DNA from: Acetofilamentum sp.
Lineage (GTDB): Bacteria; Bacteroidota; Bacteroidia; Bacteroidales; JAFGUD01
DNA: 32,856 bases
Assembly: GCA_020722645.1 (NCBI GenBank)
Contig: DYKL01000004.1
Coordinates: 1-32,856, forward strand
Direction of reading: 5' to 3'
How positions within the stretch are numbered: position 1 is the stretch's first letter; every line of letters starts with the position of its first letter. A program made the translations under genes and the position numbers. Under the pieces are notes generated by a model that had not been told where the DNA came from, ran no database searches, and saw only the letters and a program-made list of their open reading frames with translations. Below, piece after piece: positions 5,980 through 26,530 of the stretch.

Positions 5980-7236
5980 ATGAAAAAATTAACCGCTCTT
6001 ATATGTCTAATAATCAATGTTTTTACATATTCAATTTCACAAAATCCAAGTATAAAAATTTTGCAATATAATTTATTATATTTCGGTTTATATGATGATG
6101 GTTGCGACCAAACAAACAATAATATAGATGATAAATGTGATTATCTTAAAACTATTATAAATTATGCAGAACCCGATATTTTCGCTGTAAATGAAATTTA
6201 TAAAAATGATAATGTACACGAATATTTATGGACAAAAGTTTTTGCTTTGAATAATTTAAGCTATTATGATTATGGAGAAGTGAAAGGTTCGCATTTAACT
6301 TCGCAGGTTTTTTACAACACAAATACCCTAAGACTAAAAGTAGAAAACACAATTTATACATCTCCAAGAAATATTCACGAATATGTTTTTTACTATAATT
6401 CACCTGATTTATTAACAGGAGATACTGTCTTTTTTTCTTTGTTTGTGGCACATTTAAAAGCCGGTGATGAATATGAAAACGACAGAGCCGAATCTGCCAA
6501 CAGTTTAATGAGTTATATATATTCCAACGATTTAAAAAATTACATTCTTTCAGGCGACTTAAATTTATATGGTTCATCAGAACAAGCCTATCAATATCTG
6601 ACAAATTATGCACAATCATCTTATAGTTTTAAAGACCCATGTTCTTCAGGCGAATGGCACGAAAATTCAAATTATGCAGATTATCACACACAATCTACTT
6701 CATATTCCGGAACAGATTGCATGTCAAGTGGAGGATTAGATGACCGATTTGATTTTATACTTTTTTCCCCTGCAATACAAAACGGCACTTATGATATGGA
6801 ATATGTTACAAGTTCTTTTACAACAATCGGTCAAGATGGTGAACATTTTAATGACGGAGTAACATATAATGGAAACAGTTCAGTTCCTGCAAATGTTTTG
6901 ACAGCATTGGCAAATAATTCAGACCATTTACCTGTTTCAGCTATTTTTTCTTTTAATCAAACATCGGCATTTCAGTATAATGAAAAAATATATCAGGATA
7001 TTAAAATACAAAATCCGGCTAATGATTATTTAAAAATTTTTATATCCGACAATAGACTAATCTCGAACAATTTGAAAGCAGAAATCTACAAAATTGACGG
7101 CACAAAAATAAAATCTTATAGTATAGAAAATTTTGAACATAAAGAAAATATTTCCTTTTTATCAGCCGGAATTTATATTATTTCGATATATGATAATTCA
7201 AAATTTTACGGCACAACAAAACTTATAAAACAATAA
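5980..7236 (+). CDS. Secreted endonuclease/exonuclease/phosphatase-family protein with T9SS C-terminal sorting domain
   Basis: Signal peptide from ATG 5980 (MKKLTALICLIINVFTYSIS), EEP motifs (NEIY, SGDLN, NSDHLPV), C-terminal T9SS-like domain (LKAEIYKIDGTKIKSYSI...LSAGIYIISIYDN...KLIKQ). The upstream track start (5926) overlaps the promoter. Confidence 0.8.
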   Translation: MKKLTALICLIINVFTYSISQNPSIKILQYNLLYFGLYDDGCDQTNNNIDDKCDYLKTIINYAEPDIFAVNEIYKNDNVHEYLWTKVFALNNLSYYDYGEVKGSHLTSQVFYNTNTLRLKVENTIYTSPRNIHEYVFYYNSPDLLTGDTVFFSLFVAHLKAGDEYENDRAESANSLMSYIYSNDLKNYILSGDLNLYGSSEQAYQYLTNYAQSSYSFKDPCSSGEWHENSNYADYHTQSTSYSGTDCMSSGGLDDRFDFILFSPAIQNGTYDMEYVTSSFTTIGQDGEHFNDGVTYNGNSSVPANVLTALANNSDHLPVSAIFSFNQTSAFQYNEKIYQDIKIQNPANDYLKIFISDNRLISNNLKAEIYKIDGTKIKSYSIENFEHKENISFLSAGIYIISIYDNSKFYGTTKLIKQ

Positions 7237-8858: not shown

Positions 8859-8870
8859 ATTTTTGTTTTT

Positions 8871-8886
8871 TGTTCCACGTGGAACA
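8871..8886. promoter_or_regulatory. parS: parS-like ParB-binding site 1 (TGTTCCACGTGGAACA)
   Basis: Perfect 16-bp palindrome matching the TGTTNCACGTGNAACA parS consensus; intergenic. Confidence 0.85.
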
Positions 8887-8923
8887 TTTTTAATTGAATT
8901 TTTATTTAAAATAAAACAAAAAA

Positions 8924-8939
8924 TGTTCCACGTGGAACA
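8924..8939. promoter_or_regulatory. parS: parS-like ParB-binding site 2 (TGTTCCACGTGGAACA)
   Basis: Second identical 16-bp palindrome, 53 bp start-to-start from the first, between ade and mnmG. Confidence 0.85.
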
Positions 8940-8945
8940 TTTTAA

Positions 8946-11670: not shown

Positions 11671-14600
11671 TATAGTAGGTTTTATAAAAAGGGTTTAACT
11701 GTAGTATTTTTTTTGAAAAAGATTCATTTAAAAGTTTATAATCATTAAAATATTTTTCTATATCTTCGGGTGAATTAGTATTTAGGTTGTTTCCGACTTT
11801 GGATTCTCGTTTATCGTCGTATTTTCTTTTATTATCAGAATTTTCGACTTCCAAAAGTCGCGTTTTAATTTCATTATCTCTTTGTAAAATTTCAGGTGTT
11901 ATATTATTGTTTAGAATATCTTTTTTAATATCATCATTTATTTGGTTAATCTCGTTCAATAATTTGGACATTTCATCAGAAAGCTGACCGGAATTTAGCA
12001 TATCTTCGAGCATTTTTTGAAAAGCTTCTCTTTTAGCGACTTGCTGCCCCATCTGTTCAGAAGTATATTGCCCATTTTTCATTTGGTTAATCATTTCCTG
12101 AAGTTGTTGCTGCATAGATTGTTGCATTTGTTTCATATCACCTACAGACATTTGCTGAGGTTTGCTGGAAGATGGATTTCCTGACCCGGGCATACTCATC
12201 TGATTTTGCATATTTTGCAAAGACTCTTGCAACATTAAAGCTAATTTATTGACAGATTCAATTGTATATCTTTGATTTATTGCTGCTTCATTTCTTTTAT
12301 TGACATTCAAATTTTGGATTGTTTTATCTAAATTATTTCTGATATTTACTAATTCATCTGTAATAGGTTTAGAAATAGTAGGATTTCTTTTGGCTAAAGC
12401 ATATAAAGTATCATTGATTACAGCATATTGATTTTGCAATGCTATTTGATTGATTTTCAATTCTATATATGCTTCAGATTTATACGATAAATTTTTCTGT
12501 GTTAATAAATTTAATTGTTCTTGTGTAAATGAAAAATTAAGCAAATTAGATAATAAAAATTTAATAGCCTGTTCATCTTCGGAATTTTGCATCATAGAAT
12601 TTTGCATCATCATATTAGACATCTGTTCAGAAAGATTCTTCATTTGTTCAGAAGAATTTTTCATATTCTGAGAAGCCTTTTTATTTTTATTTTCAAACAT
12701 ATTTTCTTTTGCTTGTTCAAATTCCTGATTTATCTGTTCAATTTCTTCCTGAAATTCTTCTAAAATGTATGGCTTTTCGAGTGATTGATTATAATTTTGA
12801 AGACTGTCATATTCCTGCATTAAATCTTCAAATTTTTTCTGATTTGTTAAAAGAGAATCTTGAAGTTCTTGATTATTTTTGTCAGATTTTTTAAAAGATT
12901 CAGATAAGTTTTCCTGTTCTTTAGCTAATTCATTGAGTTGATTTGCCACATTTTGCACATCTTGTTCCAACTTCATTCTTTTCAGTAATTCTTGAGTACG
13001 TTCCATTTCTTTAGACATATCTTCATAAGACAATTCTGTTTTTTTCAGAGTATTATCAAATTTTTTATCATCAAATTTACTTTGTAATTCTTTTAATTGC
13101 TCTAATAAATCTTTAATTTCATCGGTCATTAATTCATCTAATAATTTTTGAATTTCTTCGTGTTTCTTTAACAAATCTTCATTTTTTGGGTCGAAAGATT
13201 TTAAATTGTTAAGTTTTTCTTGATTTTCCTTTTTTAAAGAATCTAAAAGTTGTTCCAATTCATTTTGTTTGTTCAAAATATTGTCTAAAAAACTTTGTTT
13301 TTCCCATTTGCTAACCTCTTCATTTAATAATTTCTGATTAAAATTGTCAATATCCTGCTGAATGTCAAAAGATAATTGATAAGCATTGTTTAATTGCTCC
13401 TGCACTTTTTCATCAGAAACATTAAAAGCAGAATCAAGCTCGTTTAAAGAAGGGATATAAAAATTAAATTGTGAAGTAGCAGTTGATTTATAGCCGCTTA
13501 CATAATCGTTGTCAGTAATTTTGAAAAAATACTTAACTATTTGATTATTAGATATTTTTAAATCAGAAAAATCAAAGATATAAAAAAACTCCTGATTAGA
13601 TTGAAATTTGGAAATATCAATATTTACAGATTCATAATTATCAGCCTGTTCAGAATTTTTATCATTTACTGAATAGTTGAAAGATAAAGACTTAAAACCA
13701 TAATCATCTGAAATTAGCCCTCTGAAGAAAAATAAAGAATAATTATTTGAATCCTGAACCTGCTGAACAGCGATATTAGGATATAAATCAGGAATTACAG
13801 ATAAATTATATTCAAACAAAGAATTCTGAACATACTTATTTTTAACAATAATAGAATAGCTTGCTGATATTAAGGCTTGATAAGTAATGCTGAAAGTTTG
13901 TTTTTCGTTTTTTGAATAAATCTTATTAGAATCAACAAGCATTAAAAGAGTGTCGATGTTGTTACCGGAAAAATTAAATTTCAAAACAGAGCCGTAAGGA
14001 ACAATTAAATCGCCTGTATTTTTGAGAGAATACTTTGATTTTCCAGTATATGAAGGAGGTAAAATATCAACGGAAAAATCAGATATTTGAGGTGTTGGAA
14101 GAATAGAGATTTGATATTTAGACGATTTAAAATTATCAGCTTCGAAATAAAAAGAAAAGTTGTTGTTTATTGATTTAAAGTTGTATTCAAAAATACTTTT
14201 TTTAGAGCCGATAATCATAGGAATTTTATTAGAACCATAGACTATATAAACAATAGATGGGACATATTCGCCTGTAATTTGTACAAGTACATTGAAATCA
14301 GCTCCGTTTTGAACTTCCAAATTTTTATTTAACAAATTGAAGTTAAAAGGAGCTTGCTGTTCATATAAAACACCGTAATTTACGAATCTTTCAGTTCCAA
14401 GTTTAAGAATATTATTATTAAAAATAACAAAAAACAAAAGAATGAGTAGCGGAATAAATAAATATTTATAATATTTATTCAAATCTTTTGATGAAAGAGC
14501 ATTAGAAAAATTGAACAATTTGATGTTGCTAATTTTCTGATTTATAGCTGCATTAATAAGGCTGATGTTTTGTTTATCCGATATTTGTTCATTTAATTCC

Positions 14601-16002: not shown

Positions 16003-16753
16003 TATCAGGTAAATTAAATTTTATATTAATTTGTTCATTAAAAATAACTTTTTTGCTAATAATAAATAATGACAAAGTATCTATCGAAACAACTTTTAAT
16101 TCAGTGTGTTCCGGTAAATCATAATTATCGAAAGTTTTAAAATTACTGTAGTTTATATACAAATCTTTATGCAATAAATTATCGTATATTTCGCAGTATT
16201 TAATATTAAAATTGTCTGTTATATAAAATAAATGTGCAATATTAACAATTTTTGAGTTATTTTGATTATATATTAAATTTTTGAAGATATATAAAGAATC
16301 TTTATCAAGCGAATATGAATTCAAGTCTGTGAAATAAGGATAACTGAATAAATCGGCAGTAAAAATGGATTGCAAGGAATAAAAATCGAAAGCAATGCTG
16401 TAATTTTTTAATATAACATCTTTATTACCTGCGATATAGTCTTTTTGAACAGGCATATAAATAATAAAAGTATCGGGAGTTGCAAAGATTTCAGCGATAG
16501 TAATTCCAAATCCCAGAGATATTGAAATGTACATAACCGAATCTTTGATAATTTTAGTTGAACCAAAAAAAGATAATTTTTGTTCATTTGAAGAATAATC
16601 AGCACTGAATTTAAAAGACAACGATTTAAAATCCTTATTGACAGAATCAATAAAAGTAGTGCCTGAAATTTTCATTTTTGAGGTATTTTGTTTAAAAATC
16701 GAGCAAGAAGAAATCAGAAAGATTAAAGATATTATTATAAAAAAATTTTTCAT
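15980..16753 (-). CDS. DUF4292-like lipoprotein
   Basis: Lipobox signal peptide (MKNFFIIISLIFLISSCSIFK), size and position between the LytM and TPR genes. Confidence 0.65.
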   Translation of the reverse strand: MKNFFIIISLIFLISSCSIFKQNTSKMKISGTTFIDSVNKDFKSLSFKFSADYSSNEQKLSFFGSTKIIKDSVMYISISLGFGITIAEIFATPDTFIIYMPVQKDYIAGNKDVILKNYSIAFDFYSLQSIFTADLFSYPYFTDLNSYSLDKDSLYIFKNLIYNQNNSKIVNIAHLFYITDNFNIKYCEIYDNLLHKDLYINYSNFKTFDNYDLPEHTELKVVSIDTLSLFIISKKVIFNEQINIKFNLPDNAKPINY

Positions 16754-16767
16754 TAAATTGTTTATAA

Positions 16768-18435
16768 TTACAACTGTTTATTTAAAAAAGTGTTGCCCAG
16801 ATTAACAGATTTTAACCAAGCTTCATTAGCTAAATCATTCTTATTTAATTTATTGTAAACATTACCCAATAATTCATAGTATAAAAAATTAGGTTTTGAT
16901 GAATTTGAAATAGCAATTTGACAATAATTTAAAGAAGAGTTATAATCATCAAATTTGTACATAGCATAAGCATAAATGTATGCAATGTTTGAACTTAAAG
17001 AACTTGTTTCGTTTATAATACATTCACCAAGCAGGTTGAAAGTTTTATTTTTGTATAAGGAATTTTGTGCAAAATAAAAAGAGAAATAGGCATTTAAATC
17101 GCAATTTGAAGTAGCAAAAGAAAGAGCATTGTTGTAGTACAAATTTTCATCTGAAAAATTACCTGTTATTCTGAAATATTGAGAGAGATAAAAGTTAAAA
17201 TAAGCCATTAAATCATTTTGTTCGTAAACTATTGATTTACCAAAAATAAGAGCTTCATAAGCATCATTATTTTTTGATAAATTCAGAGATGAAATTCCTT
17301 TGAATAAATATATAACAGGTTGAGCCGGAAACAAATCTATTGCATAAGCAGCTAAAGAATCTAATTTTGAATAAAAACCAAATCTGTTGTATAAGTTAAA
17401 CAATTTCAAGTAAGTTGAAAAATCCGTTATATCTTTACTTTGTTTGATTTCATAGAAATAGATAGCATCATAGAACTTATTATTTATTTCATAAAATTCG
17501 CTTAAAAAATTCACAAATCTTACATTACTTTGATTTTTAAAATATAAATTATAAAAAATAGTATCTAAATCGAAAGAGAAAGAATTGTAATTGAAAAAAT
17601 CCATATTTTCATACAATATCTGTATAAATGCAGAATTAGAAGATAGACAATCGCCTGATTTTTCTAAATAATATAAAACACTGTCTTTTTTGTCGATTAA
17701 AATGTAATATTTGAGCGAAAGTTCATAAAAATAAACAGTTTCAGGAAATAAAGTTTGAATTTTTTTGATATAAAAAAAAGCAGAATCAAGATTTTTTTCA
17801 GACAGATAAAATTGAGCCAAATTCACTAATGATAAGGAATTTTGAGGAAATTTTTGAACAATAGTTTGTAAAAGATTTACAGCATCATCATTTTTACCTG
17901 TTTTTTGCAATAAATTGACTTTTTGAAGATAAAAATCAATTTCGTAATTGAATTTTGATATAGCTGCATTTAAAGCTATTAATTGATTTTTGTAATCAGA
18001 ATAAAAAGCAAAAAAATCAATTGCATTTTGAAAATCATCGTGAATATCTGATTTTTGTATTATTTGTAGTTGTAAATCAGTTGCTTCGTTAATCGAATTA
18101 ACCTTTTCGTAGAGTAAAGCAAGATTTTTTAAATACCAGATATTTTCAGCGTCAATATTAACAGCATTTTCAGCGTAATTTATGGCAAGAAAATATTGAG
18201 CTTCCTGTTCATATATTTTAGATAATAAATAATTTGCGGCAGAAGATTGATTGTCAATTTCCAAGGCTTTAATTAGTAAATATTTAGCTGTATCGGTATT
18301 TTCAGTTAATAAAAATCGTTGAGCCTCAGAAAAATATTCGATAAATTTTTCCTTTTCGACTGTTTGAGAATTGAGCGATAAAAAAGACAAAAAACAAATA
18401 ATAAAACCAAATATTTTATATTTTATCATAATCAC
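16768..18435 (-). CDS. Tetratricopeptide-repeat protein, exported
   Basis: Signal peptide and repeated TPR-like helices (AANYLLSKIYEQEAQYFLAINYAENAVNIDAENIWYLKNLALLYEK). Confidence 0.8.
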   Translation of the reverse strand: MIMIKYKIFGFIICFLSFLSLNSQTVEKEKFIEYFSEAQRFLLTENTDTAKYLLIKALEIDNQSSAANYLLSKIYEQEAQYFLAINYAENAVNIDAENIWYLKNLALLYEKVNSINEATDLQLQIIQKSDIHDDFQNAIDFFAFYSDYKNQLIALNAAISKFNYEIDFYLQKVNLLQKTGKNDDAVNLLQTIVQKFPQNSLSLVNLAQFYLSEKNLDSAFFYIKKIQTLFPETVYFYELSLKYYILIDKKDSVLYYLEKSGDCLSSNSAFIQILYENMDFFNYNSFSFDLDTIFYNLYFKNQSNVRFVNFLSEFYEINNKFYDAIYFYEIKQSKDITDFSTYLKLFNLYNRFGFYSKLDSLAAYAIDLFPAQPVIYLFKGISSLNLSKNNDAYEALIFGKSIVYEQNDLMAYFNFYLSQYFRITGNFSDENLYYNNALSFATSNCDLNAYFSFYFAQNSLYKNKTFNLLGECIINETSSLSSNIAYIYAYAMYKFDDYNSSLNYCQIAISNSSKPNFLYYELLGNVYNKLNKNDLANEAWLKSVNLGNTFLNKQL

Positions 18436-23887: not shown

Positions 23888-24296
23888 GCTTAGTTACTAT
23901 CTCATTTATTGTTAATTCTTTAAATACCTTATAAATTTGTTCAAGTATCGGATCTAACTTCATTCTAAACGGACAAACTTCTTTCATTTTAATGTCTTTT
24001 TTGCAAATTTGCAATCCGATTAAACATTCATTATACATTTCTAAACCATCGAATATTTCTACAATATCCAAAATACTTATTTTTGAAGGATTTTTTTGAA
24101 ATTTAATGCCACCTTGTATTCCTCTTTGCGAATAAAGGATTTTATGCTTTGTTAAATTAGAAATAATTTTGGTTAAAAAGGAATAAGAAATATTCAAATC
24201 TTTGGCTATCTGTTTAATGTTTACCAAAGAATCTTTTTGATTAAAAGCTATATAAATCAAAGCTCTGATAGCATATTTTGTAGTTGCTGAAAGCAT
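23856..24296 (-). CDS. Rrf2-family transcriptional regulator
   Basis: MLSATTKYAIRALIYIA, LNISYSFLTKIISNLTKHKILYSQRGIQGG, three Cys (CLIGLQICKKDIKMKEVC). Confidence 0.92.
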   Translation of the reverse strand: MLSATTKYAIRALIYIAFNQKDSLVNIKQIAKDLNISYSFLTKIISNLTKHKILYSQRGIQGGIKFQKNPSKISILDIVEIFDGLEMYNECLIGLQICKKDIKMKEVCPFRMKLDPILEQIYKVFKELTINEIVTKLKPFDVSLLL

Positions 24297-24305
24297 AATA
24301 ATAAT

Positions 24306-24740
24306 TTACAAAGGTATTTTATCTATTCGTTTTTGATGTCTTCCGCCTTCAAATCCGGTAGATAGAAAATTATCAACAATTTGTACAGCAGTCTCAAAGT
24401 CTATAAATCTTGCAGGTAAGGAACAAACATTAGCATCATTATGCAATCTTGCCAACTTTGCAATTTCGGGTGTCCAGCATAATGCTGAGCGAATAAGCTG
24501 ATGCTTATTTGCGGTCATATTTATTCCGTTACCGGAACCGCATAAAGATATGCCGAAATTGAATTCTTTTTGTTCAACAGCCTTAGCCATAGGATGTGCA
24601 AAATCAGGATAATCTGCACTTTCTTCGGAATAGCATCCGTAATCAAATAAACTGTATCCTTTACTTTTTAAATAATCTATAAGTTGTAATTTTAACTTGT
24701 AGCCAGCGTGGTCAGAGGATAACGCAATTTTAATCTTCAT
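24306..24740 (-). CDS. rpiB: Ribose-5-phosphate isomerase B
   Basis: IALSSDHAGYKLKLQLIDYLKSKGY, FDYGCYSEESADYPDFA, ISLCGSGNGINMTANK, NDANVCSLPARF. Confidence 0.96.
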   Translation of the reverse strand: MKIKIALSSDHAGYKLKLQLIDYLKSKGYSLFDYGCYSEESADYPDFAHPMAKAVEQKEFNFGISLCGSGNGINMTANKHQLIRSALCWTPEIAKLARLHNDANVCSLPARFIDFETAVQIVDNFLSTGFEGGRHQKRIDKIPL

Positions 24741-24878
24741 TTTATTATGCTTTTTTAAATAAATTATTTACAAATTTAATTATATTTGCGTTTTTAATTG
24801 AATTTTTTTGTAAAATATTTCTTTAATAATTTGAATTTACTGAAAAATAAATAATCAATAGTTCGGTATATTTTGAAG

Positions 24879-25001
24879 TAATTCGTTAATATTCAGCAAA
24901 TTGATTTTGTATGTGTAACAAATTAGTAGTTGATTGAAAATCAATAATTTGCTTCCTTCGTTATAACTCTGGATGACGCTAAATGAAAAATTAACGAATT
25001 A
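24879..25001. repeat. Nested inverted repeats
   Basis: Outer arms TAATTCGTTAAT (24879-24890)/ATTAACGAATTA (24990-25001); inner arms AGCAAATTGATTTT (24895-24908)/AAAATCAAT-AAT-TTGCT (24937-24953, 3-nt bulge). Confidence 0.65.
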
Positions 25002-25219
25002 TTGAATAATAGTATCTTTTATTTATTATAATTGTTCTTATATGTTTTGTTCTTATTGTGAAAAATGATTGCTAAAAAGTAATGTAAATAACTGAATAAT
25101 AAAATGTTAAATTGCATTATCAACAATTATTTTTTGATGTAATTAAAACAAAAAGCATAGTTTTTGTTTTTAATTGTTTAATAATCAATAAAATACAATC
25201 TAATTTGAAATGTAAAATA

Positions 25220-25241
25220 TTATTAACAATTTTGTTAATAA
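25220..25241. repeat. 22-bp palindrome TTATTAACAA-TT-TTGTTAATAA
   Basis: Perfect 10-bp arms with 2-nt centre, read directly. Confidence 0.75.
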
Positions 25242-25585
25242 AAGTTCAAAAACTTAGAATAAGTTTCAAGTATTTTTAAAAAAATCAAAATTTGAATAAA
25301 TTAAAAATATTTTTACAAGTTACTTAACATTAATTTAACAAAAAATTTACATTGCTCATTCAACTATTTTTTCACAATTAAAAAAACAGTCTTAAATATT
25401 TAAAAACATAAATAGTTTATTTTCAGCAAAATAAATGATTACAATTAGTTAATAATATGTGGAAAAAAGTAAAGTTTTTTAATATCCAAGAAAAATTGAT
25501 TTTTTTTTTTCACTATATTAACAATCTATTATTATCATTATTTCTTTTAAATTAATTAATTTTTATTTATATTAATAATATAATT

Positions 25586-26530
25586 ATGGTTGATAACATA
25601 AAAAATGAAATTTTAAATTTAAAAAATAAAAAAAATGCAATAATATTAGCACACTTTTATGTTGATGACGATATTCAGGATATTGCAGATTTTGTTGGAG
25701 ATAGTCTTGAGCTGTCAAGAAAAGCTTCTTTAACTGATGCCGAAATTATTGTTTTTGCAGGAGTTCATTTTATGGCTGAAACTGCAAAAATTTTATCTCC
25801 TCATAAAAGAGTTCTGATACCTGATATAAATTCAGGATGTCCGTTGGCAGACAGTATGAATATAAATGAGTTCCTAAAATTTAAAGAAAAATATCCCGAT
25901 TATTTTGTTGTTAATTATGTAAATAGTACTGCTGAAATCAAAGCCGTAAGCGATTTAATATGCACATCTTCAAATGCTGTTGCTTTAATAAAATCGTTAC
26001 CCAAAGAAACAAAAATTCTTTTCGGACCTGATAAAAATCTAGGTTCTTATGTAAAATCATTTGTAGAAAATGAAATTGTATTATGGGACGGAAATTGTCC
26101 GGTTCACGAAAATTTTTCTGCTGAAAAACTGAAACTTTTGAAAAAACAATATCCTTCAGTTAAAGTATTAGCACACCCTGAGGCTAACAAAGATGTTCTT
26201 TTAAAATCCGATTTTATTGGCTCTACATCACAAATTTTGAAATTTGTCGAAAATAGCGACAATAAACAATTTATTATTGCAACTGAGCCGGGAGTTATTC
26301 ACAAAATGAAAGAAATTAAACCCGATAATTTATATATACCGCTTCCTCCTATCACAAAACATAGTCAAAGTATTTGCTATAATATGAAAAAGCATACCAT
26401 AGAAAAAGTTTATTATTCTTTAAAAAACGAGCAACACGAAATTATTATGAAAGATGACTTGATTGAAAAAGCTAAAATACCAATAACAAGAATGATTGAT
26501 ATATCTTTAAAGTTAGAATTAATAAAATAA
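25586..26530 (+). CDS. nadA: Quinolinate synthase
   Basis: AIILAHFYVDDDIQDIADFVGDSLELSRKA, INSGCPLADSMN, WDGNCPVHENF, HPEANKDV, IATEPGVIHKMK. Confidence 0.95.
   Translation: MVDNIKNEILNLKNKKNAIILAHFYVDDDIQDIADFVGDSLELSRKASLTDAEIIVFAGVHFMAETAKILSPHKRVLIPDINSGCPLADSMNINEFLKFKEKYPDYFVVNYVNSTAEIKAVSDLICTSSNAVALIKSLPKETKILFGPDKNLGSYVKSFVENEIVLWDGNCPVHENFSAEKLKLLKKQYPSVKVLAHPEANKDVLLKSDFIGSTSQILKFVENSDNKQFIIATEPGVIHKMKEIKPDNLYIPLPPITKHSQSICYNMKKHTIEKVYYSLKNEQHEIIMKDDLIEKAKIPITRMIDISLKLELIK

Follow-up and report, generated by a model that had tools for sequence, protein, structure and literature searches.

The window analysed in this work is a stretch of 32,856 nucleotides from an Acetofilamentum sp. 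genome under the order Bacteroidales. The window is the entire contig C59 of an assembly that consists of 684 contigs (3.93 Mb). The divergent genes rpiB and nadA are separated in the window by a gap of 845 bp that has a GC content of 16.1%, compared with 27.8% for the window as a whole. The second-longest non-coding stretch is 135 bp, and the preliminary description of this DNA was therefore right in calling the gap the longest one. It was also right that the gap is AT-rich with T-runs, the longest mentioned being 11 T at 25500-25510. The least stable 150 bp of the whole window, which is AT-rich, readily melted and adjoins the boxes described below, begins at 25,481. The switch of gene orientation that had been claimed at the gap is real but imperfect, as the plus strand carries three genes at 21.9-23.9 kb and a fourth at 5.9 kb. 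A search of the window found neither an Rfam family nor a tRNA. The features of the locus are listed in Table 1.

Table 1. Features of the rpiB-nadA locus and the parS sites in the window.
Feature	Sequence	Position	Strand	Basis or remark
AT-rich intergenic region, proposed oriC		24741..25585	.	longest gap; rpiB-gap-nadA order-wide; skew switch at the locus in relatives
rpiB, flanking gene		24306..24740	-	
nadA, flanking gene		25586..26530	+	also next to the element in five genomes without rpiB at this place
DnaA-box-like site	TTTTTCACA	25057..25065	-	motif match
DnaA-box-like site	TTATCAACA	25117..25125	+	motif match; TTATNMACA enriched across gaps
DnaA-box-like site	TTATTAACA	25220..25228	+	motif match; de novo enriched word
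DnaA-box-like site, inverted partner of 25220-25228	TTATTAACA	25233..25241	-	motif match; absent from the preliminary description
DnaA-box-like site	TTTTTCACA	25368..25376	+	motif match
DnaA-box-like site	TTTTCCACA	25458..25466	-	within block aligned among three congeners
Upstream box (box A)	TTTTTCACT	25506..25514	+	26-genome alignment
Proximal box (box B), abuts box A	ATATTAACA	25515..25523	+	kept in G000, G002, G001 and most other gaps
DnaA-trio-like triplets, 2 bp past box B	CTA-TTA-TTA-TCA-TTA-TTT	25526..25543	+	pattern match
parS	TGTTCCACGTGGAACA	8871..8886	.	one of two matches in the assembly
parS	TGTTCCACGTGGAACA	8924..8939	.	other of two matches in the assembly

The arrangement of rpiB, gap and nadA was compared among relatives, as the preliminary description had proposed, and both the position of the gap and its motifs recur across the order. 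In both congeners the neighbourhood is retained, and rpiB and nadA are 627 and 535 bp apart. Divergent rpiB and nadA are also found in 21 of 40 genomes from other families, a non-random sample picked from the best rpiB matches, and their AT-rich gap is nearly always about 370-910 bp long (two are near 1.8 kb). The complete genome G188 also has this arrangement, which is found in 25 genomes in total. The sequence of the gap aligns poorly between the congeners except toward the nadA end. Some relatives do not have the arrangement; in G198, for example, nadA and rpiB are apart and no gap is found upstream of nadA. The mnmG/dut/flippase cluster is on the left side of the gap in the window and on the right side in most other genomes, as would be expected if inversions pivot at the gap.

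Five DnaA-box-like 9-mers had been reported previously, and all of them were found where they had been placed (25057, 25117, 25220, 25368, and 25458). The boxes in the gap depart from TTATCCACA, and they are more frequent than in dinucleotide shuffles of the gap. TTWTNMACA occurs six times in the 845 bp (1.48 in shuffles, P 0.004), TTWTNCACA three times (0.28 in shuffles, P 0.004), and TTATYAACA three times (0.20 in shuffles, P 0.0005). The absence of a perfect TTATNCACA that had been stated is true of the gap but not of the window, where three copies are located outside the gap at 6606, 26295, and 30917. Boxes with one mismatch to TTATNCACA are overrepresented in the window as a whole (90 compared with 58), so an isolated match is weak and it is the cluster that counts.

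The same types of box are enriched across the 25 gaps, where 55 TTATNMACA sites were observed compared with 7.3 expected (sd 2.4). The gaps of relatives have up to 7-8 boxes, and G002 has two copies of TTTTCCACA, 11 bp apart, at the place aligned with 25458-25466. When no box was supplied, the top 9-mers of the gaps included TTATTAACA, which is found in 16 of the 25 gaps (2 expected), and TTATCAACA, which is found in 6 (0.55 expected). The comparative analysis thus defines TTATYAACA as the putative characteristic DnaA box of this lineage. The TTATYAACA-type sites had been ranked as weaker in the preliminary description, and this ranking has to be reversed, as those sites are the better ones for such a box.

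The most diagnostic element of the gap, absent from the preliminary description, is located at 25506-25543. It consists of two abutting boxes, a spacer of 2 bp and trinucleotide repeats, and the T-run extends into its start. The spacer between box B and the triplets is AT in the window, and the pattern TAACANNMTATTATYATCATNAT fits 25519-25541 with 0 mismatches. In an alignment of 26 genomes, the offset of box A exhibits a mean fit of 7.4 out of 9 positions to TTWTNMACA, compared with 2.9-5.3 at other offsets except +9. The best 9-mer fits are found only at offsets 0 and +9, and tandem boxes thus face the triplets; the fit at offset +9 is partly fixed by the alignment anchor, that at offset 0 is not. 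The consensus of the 26 genomes is TTWTNMACA, an abutting NWAYTAACA, a 2-bp spacer that starts with G in 18 of them, and the triplets MTA-TTA-TYA-TCA-TYA. The distance from the upstream box to the triplets is 11 bp.

Strict scoring of the triplets missed several relatives and was dropped, and a pattern that allows mismatches was used instead. At up to 4 mismatches, the element is found on the nadA-facing strand in 16 of 23 gaps and on the other strand in 4, compared with 1.1 in shuffles, although the count of 16 is partly circular because the pattern was derived from some of the same gaps. Several of the 23 gaps have no recognisable element at this threshold. The scan of the whole order is a better test of the element: among the matches listed, 4 of 7 exact matches are located in the rpiB-nadA gap and 2 of 7 directly upstream of a nadA that lacks rpiB beside it. 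The distance from the element to nadA is nearly always 67-122 bp. Unwinding probably starts at 25506-25543.

These findings also bear on whether the gap is no more than AT-rich junk or the remnant of a gene or element, with boxes that arose by chance. The very low GC content, the one-mismatch boxes common in the window and the poor congener alignment away from the nadA end would all fit such an origin of the sequence. However, the boxes outnumber those of dinucleotide shuffles, both in the gap itself and, strongly, across the 25 gaps, and a directional element is kept across families at a near-fixed distance. We consider this reading extremely unlikely.

The GC skew had been proposed as a check, with a minimum expected at the gap. 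A switch is indeed found at the locus in the complete genomes G170 and G188 and in the congener contigs, but the minimum of the window itself is elsewhere. The cumulative GC skew of the window has its minimum at 13,440 and a secondary minimum at 24,124, adjoining the gap, so the local skew alone is insufficient to reveal the gap. The minimum at 13440 falls within a coding region of 1098 aa with unusual composition, and the local skew there therefore reflects protein composition as well as replication. The source assembly being in 684 contigs, the skew was sampled in complete relatives. In G188 (4.81 Mb), the samples are negative to the left of the gap and positive to the right, and the local cumulative minimum is at 2,482,317, about 500 bp from the gap (2,482,815-2,483,371). 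In G170 (4.30 Mb), GC and AT skew, fourfold sites included, flip between the 80-100 and 100-120 kb chunks, and rpiB at 106.6 kb is located within this sign change; the resolution is about 20 kb, as some of the chunks to the right have mixed signs and the local minimum extends broadly. The skew of G170 switches in the opposite direction near 2.15-2.37 Mb, roughly half a chromosome off. The congener minima are about 100 bp or less from the nadA start: the minimum of the G002 contig is at 17,091 with the gap at about 16,391-17,017, and that of the G001 contig is at 32,351 with the nadA start at about 32,281.

In many bacteria, oriC is located beside dnaA or gidA. The origin could accordingly be placed near mnmG and the parS pair (8.9 kb), at the skew minimum of the window (13.4 kb), or beside dnaA, which is on contig C95, outside the window. 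The parS pair at 8.9 kb and the minimum at 13,440 speak for the first two places, but no long gap is found near 13.4 kb and only one of 87 bp near parS, and the skew minima of the congeners are at the rpiB-nadA gap. In the AT-rich region of 454 bp before dnaA, TTWTNMACA is found once and TTATYAACA not at all, and in G170, G188, and G121 the skew minimum is 1.2-2.3 Mb away from dnaA. All of these places are very unlikely, and the origin beside dnaA was rejected, as no cluster of boxes is found in the 454 bp upstream of this gene. In G188, the putative origin is at 2.48 Mb and dnaA at 0 of 4.81 Mb, so that they are nearly opposite.

The parS pair was said to be about 16 kb away, which agrees with the distance of about 15.8 kb from the gap to the sites at 8871 and 8924. 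These are the sole two parS of the assembly, and both are on the contig of the window. As two perfect TGTTYCACGTGRAACA palindromes at 15.8 kb from the gap, they resemble the parS centromere, and parS sites mark the origin domain and not the origin itself. The reversed parS pattern, used as a control, has zero matches in 198 genomes of the order. Many relatives have parS and mnmG in linkage with rpiB or nadA. The pair in the window is located in an 87-bp gap (8859-8945) that is bounded by mnmG and a gene resembling adenine deaminase. Several relatives that have two parS show a spacing of 1.9-2.5 kb, with the copies flanking mnmG.

The gap could also be a control region of the divergent genes rpiB and nadA, with two promoters and with the 9-mers as operators of a regulator. 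Divergent genes share an upstream region, the most conserved element is located 67-122 bp before nadA in most gaps, and where rpiB is not beside the sites, they are nonetheless upstream of nadA. This reading is nevertheless improbable, given two genomes of one family in which the boxes and the element are found in gaps with other flanking genes and the nadA genes have none. In the complete genome G121, neither rpiB (at 3.94 Mb) nor nadA (at 1.84 Mb) adjoins an origin-like gap. Near mnmG, the skew has its local minimum at 1,650,954, 1.5 kb from a gap (1,652,461-1,653,083) that has 8 boxes, mostly TTATCAACA, compared with 0-3 in the other gaps (12 gaps of at least 300 bp in 140 kb). This gap also has the tandem element, followed by CTA-TTA-TTA-CTA, and the skew switch tracks the boxes and not nadA. 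In G017, the element and five boxes are found in one gap, 18.6 kb from parS, that is flanked by genes for a carboxypeptidase-regulatory-domain protein and a peptidase S49. Both genomes indicate that the element follows the origin and not nadA. The length of the gap and the up to 7-8 boxes in relatives also speak against a control region. The nadA promoter may overlap the edge of the origin.

The rpiB-nadA gap is thus very probably the chromosomal replication origin (oriC), as a lineage variant of the bacterial oriC. This origin had been put forward as a hypothesis in the preliminary description, and it is now well supported by the skew switch in relatives and by the conserved position and motifs. 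The position of the gap, its conservation, the skew switch in relatives, the motif enrichment and the tandem architecture were computed. From these, DnaA is predicted to bind the gap, the duplex to unwind at the triplets and replication to start in both directions. The dispersed TTATYAACA boxes (plus TTTTNCACA) at 25057-25466 would recruit DnaA. The abutting boxes at 25506-25523, directed at nadA, would load a DnaA filament on one strand of the triplets at 25526-25543. The AT-rich duplex would then open at the triplets and allow helicase loading, and forks would depart both ways.

The element resembles the basal unwinding system (BUS) of Bacillus subtilis and other bacteria, where tandem boxes face a run of triplets (PMC6669920, PMC8287927). 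In the BUS, the upstream box is the better match, the distance to the trios peaks at 10-13 bp, the commonest first trio is 3'-GAT-5', and the criterion used to recognise it is at least three 3'-NAN-5' triplets within 16 bp of a DnaA box (PMC8287927). The element likewise has tandem boxes that face triplets, a better upstream box and a distance of 11 bp compared with 10-13 bp (PMC8287927). The first triplets of the window read 3'-GAT-AAT-AAT-5' and follow 2 bp after box B, which gives the required three triplets, but boxes A and B are degenerate, with three differences each from TTATCCACA; the fourth triplet deviates from 3'-NAN-5'. The element differs from the BUS in the A at box position 6, in not adjoining dnaA, and in its later triplets, which are mostly 3'-AGT-5' or 3'-AAT-5' instead of 3'-GAT-5'. 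The comparison is one of sequence layout, and the function here is predicted. The trio of Clostridioides difficile oriC2 is 5'-CACCTACTACTATTACTACTATGA-3' (PMC7561715). This origin has the same polarity of boxes, short GC spacer, CTA/TTA triplets and AT-rich unwinding region, but it adjoins dnaA in a bipartite origin and has canonical TTWTNCACA boxes (PMC7561715).

The recognition motif of DnaA is DHTT in B. subtilis and DHST in the genus of the window; the other relatives where it is readable have DHAT or NHAT. The DnaA of the genus (L029:9492-10916) has GGRDHSTVLHA where that of B. subtilis has GGRDHTTVIHA. The altered motif possibly accounts for the A at position 6 of the box.

The oriC predicted for Prevotella intermedia OMA14 is away from dnaA, at a place where the skew changes and DnaA boxes cluster, and the authors consider an oriC far from dnaA common in Bacteroidetes (PMC4755523). 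A skew transition and a box cluster far from dnaA are shared with the gap described here. The OMA14 origin was found with E. coli boxes, and the passages compared here describe no flanking genes, box variant or unwinding element for it (PMC4755523). In this work, the rpiB/nadA locus, the TTATYAACA box and the tandem element are defined across the order. No publication that names a nadA/rpiB oriC, a Bacteroidota TTATCAACA box or the tandem element was found in a literature search that was incomplete and had DoriC outside its scope.

There is an even chance that much of Bacteroidales has one nadA-anchored type of origin, in which abutting variant boxes with A at position 6 are followed by a 2-bp spacer rich in G and by variant trios (3'-RRT-5'). 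The DnaA that reads this origin would have changed from DHTT to DHAT, NHAT or DHST. In that case, the specificity of the initiator would have shifted by co-evolution, along with the separation of oriC from dnaA, and the paired change of box and DnaA motif would make it possible to test cleanly how such shifts occur. Bacteroidales origins are difficult to locate, as they lie away from dnaA and lack the textbook box. With nadA (often with rpiB) as a landmark, the box consensus and a searchable element, the origin could be placed in drafts and metagenome bins, and estimates of growth rate from read depth would improve.

Two further observations concern genes of the window. A contig scan with peptide patterns of NadA (25586-26530) matched one congener and otherwise nearly only Lokiarchaeota, which is probably a pattern effect; relatives within the order are found at 45-52% identity, and no gene transfer is therefore claimed. 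A small ORF on the minus strand at 50-355 resembles a minimal nucleotidyltransferase of the MNT type.
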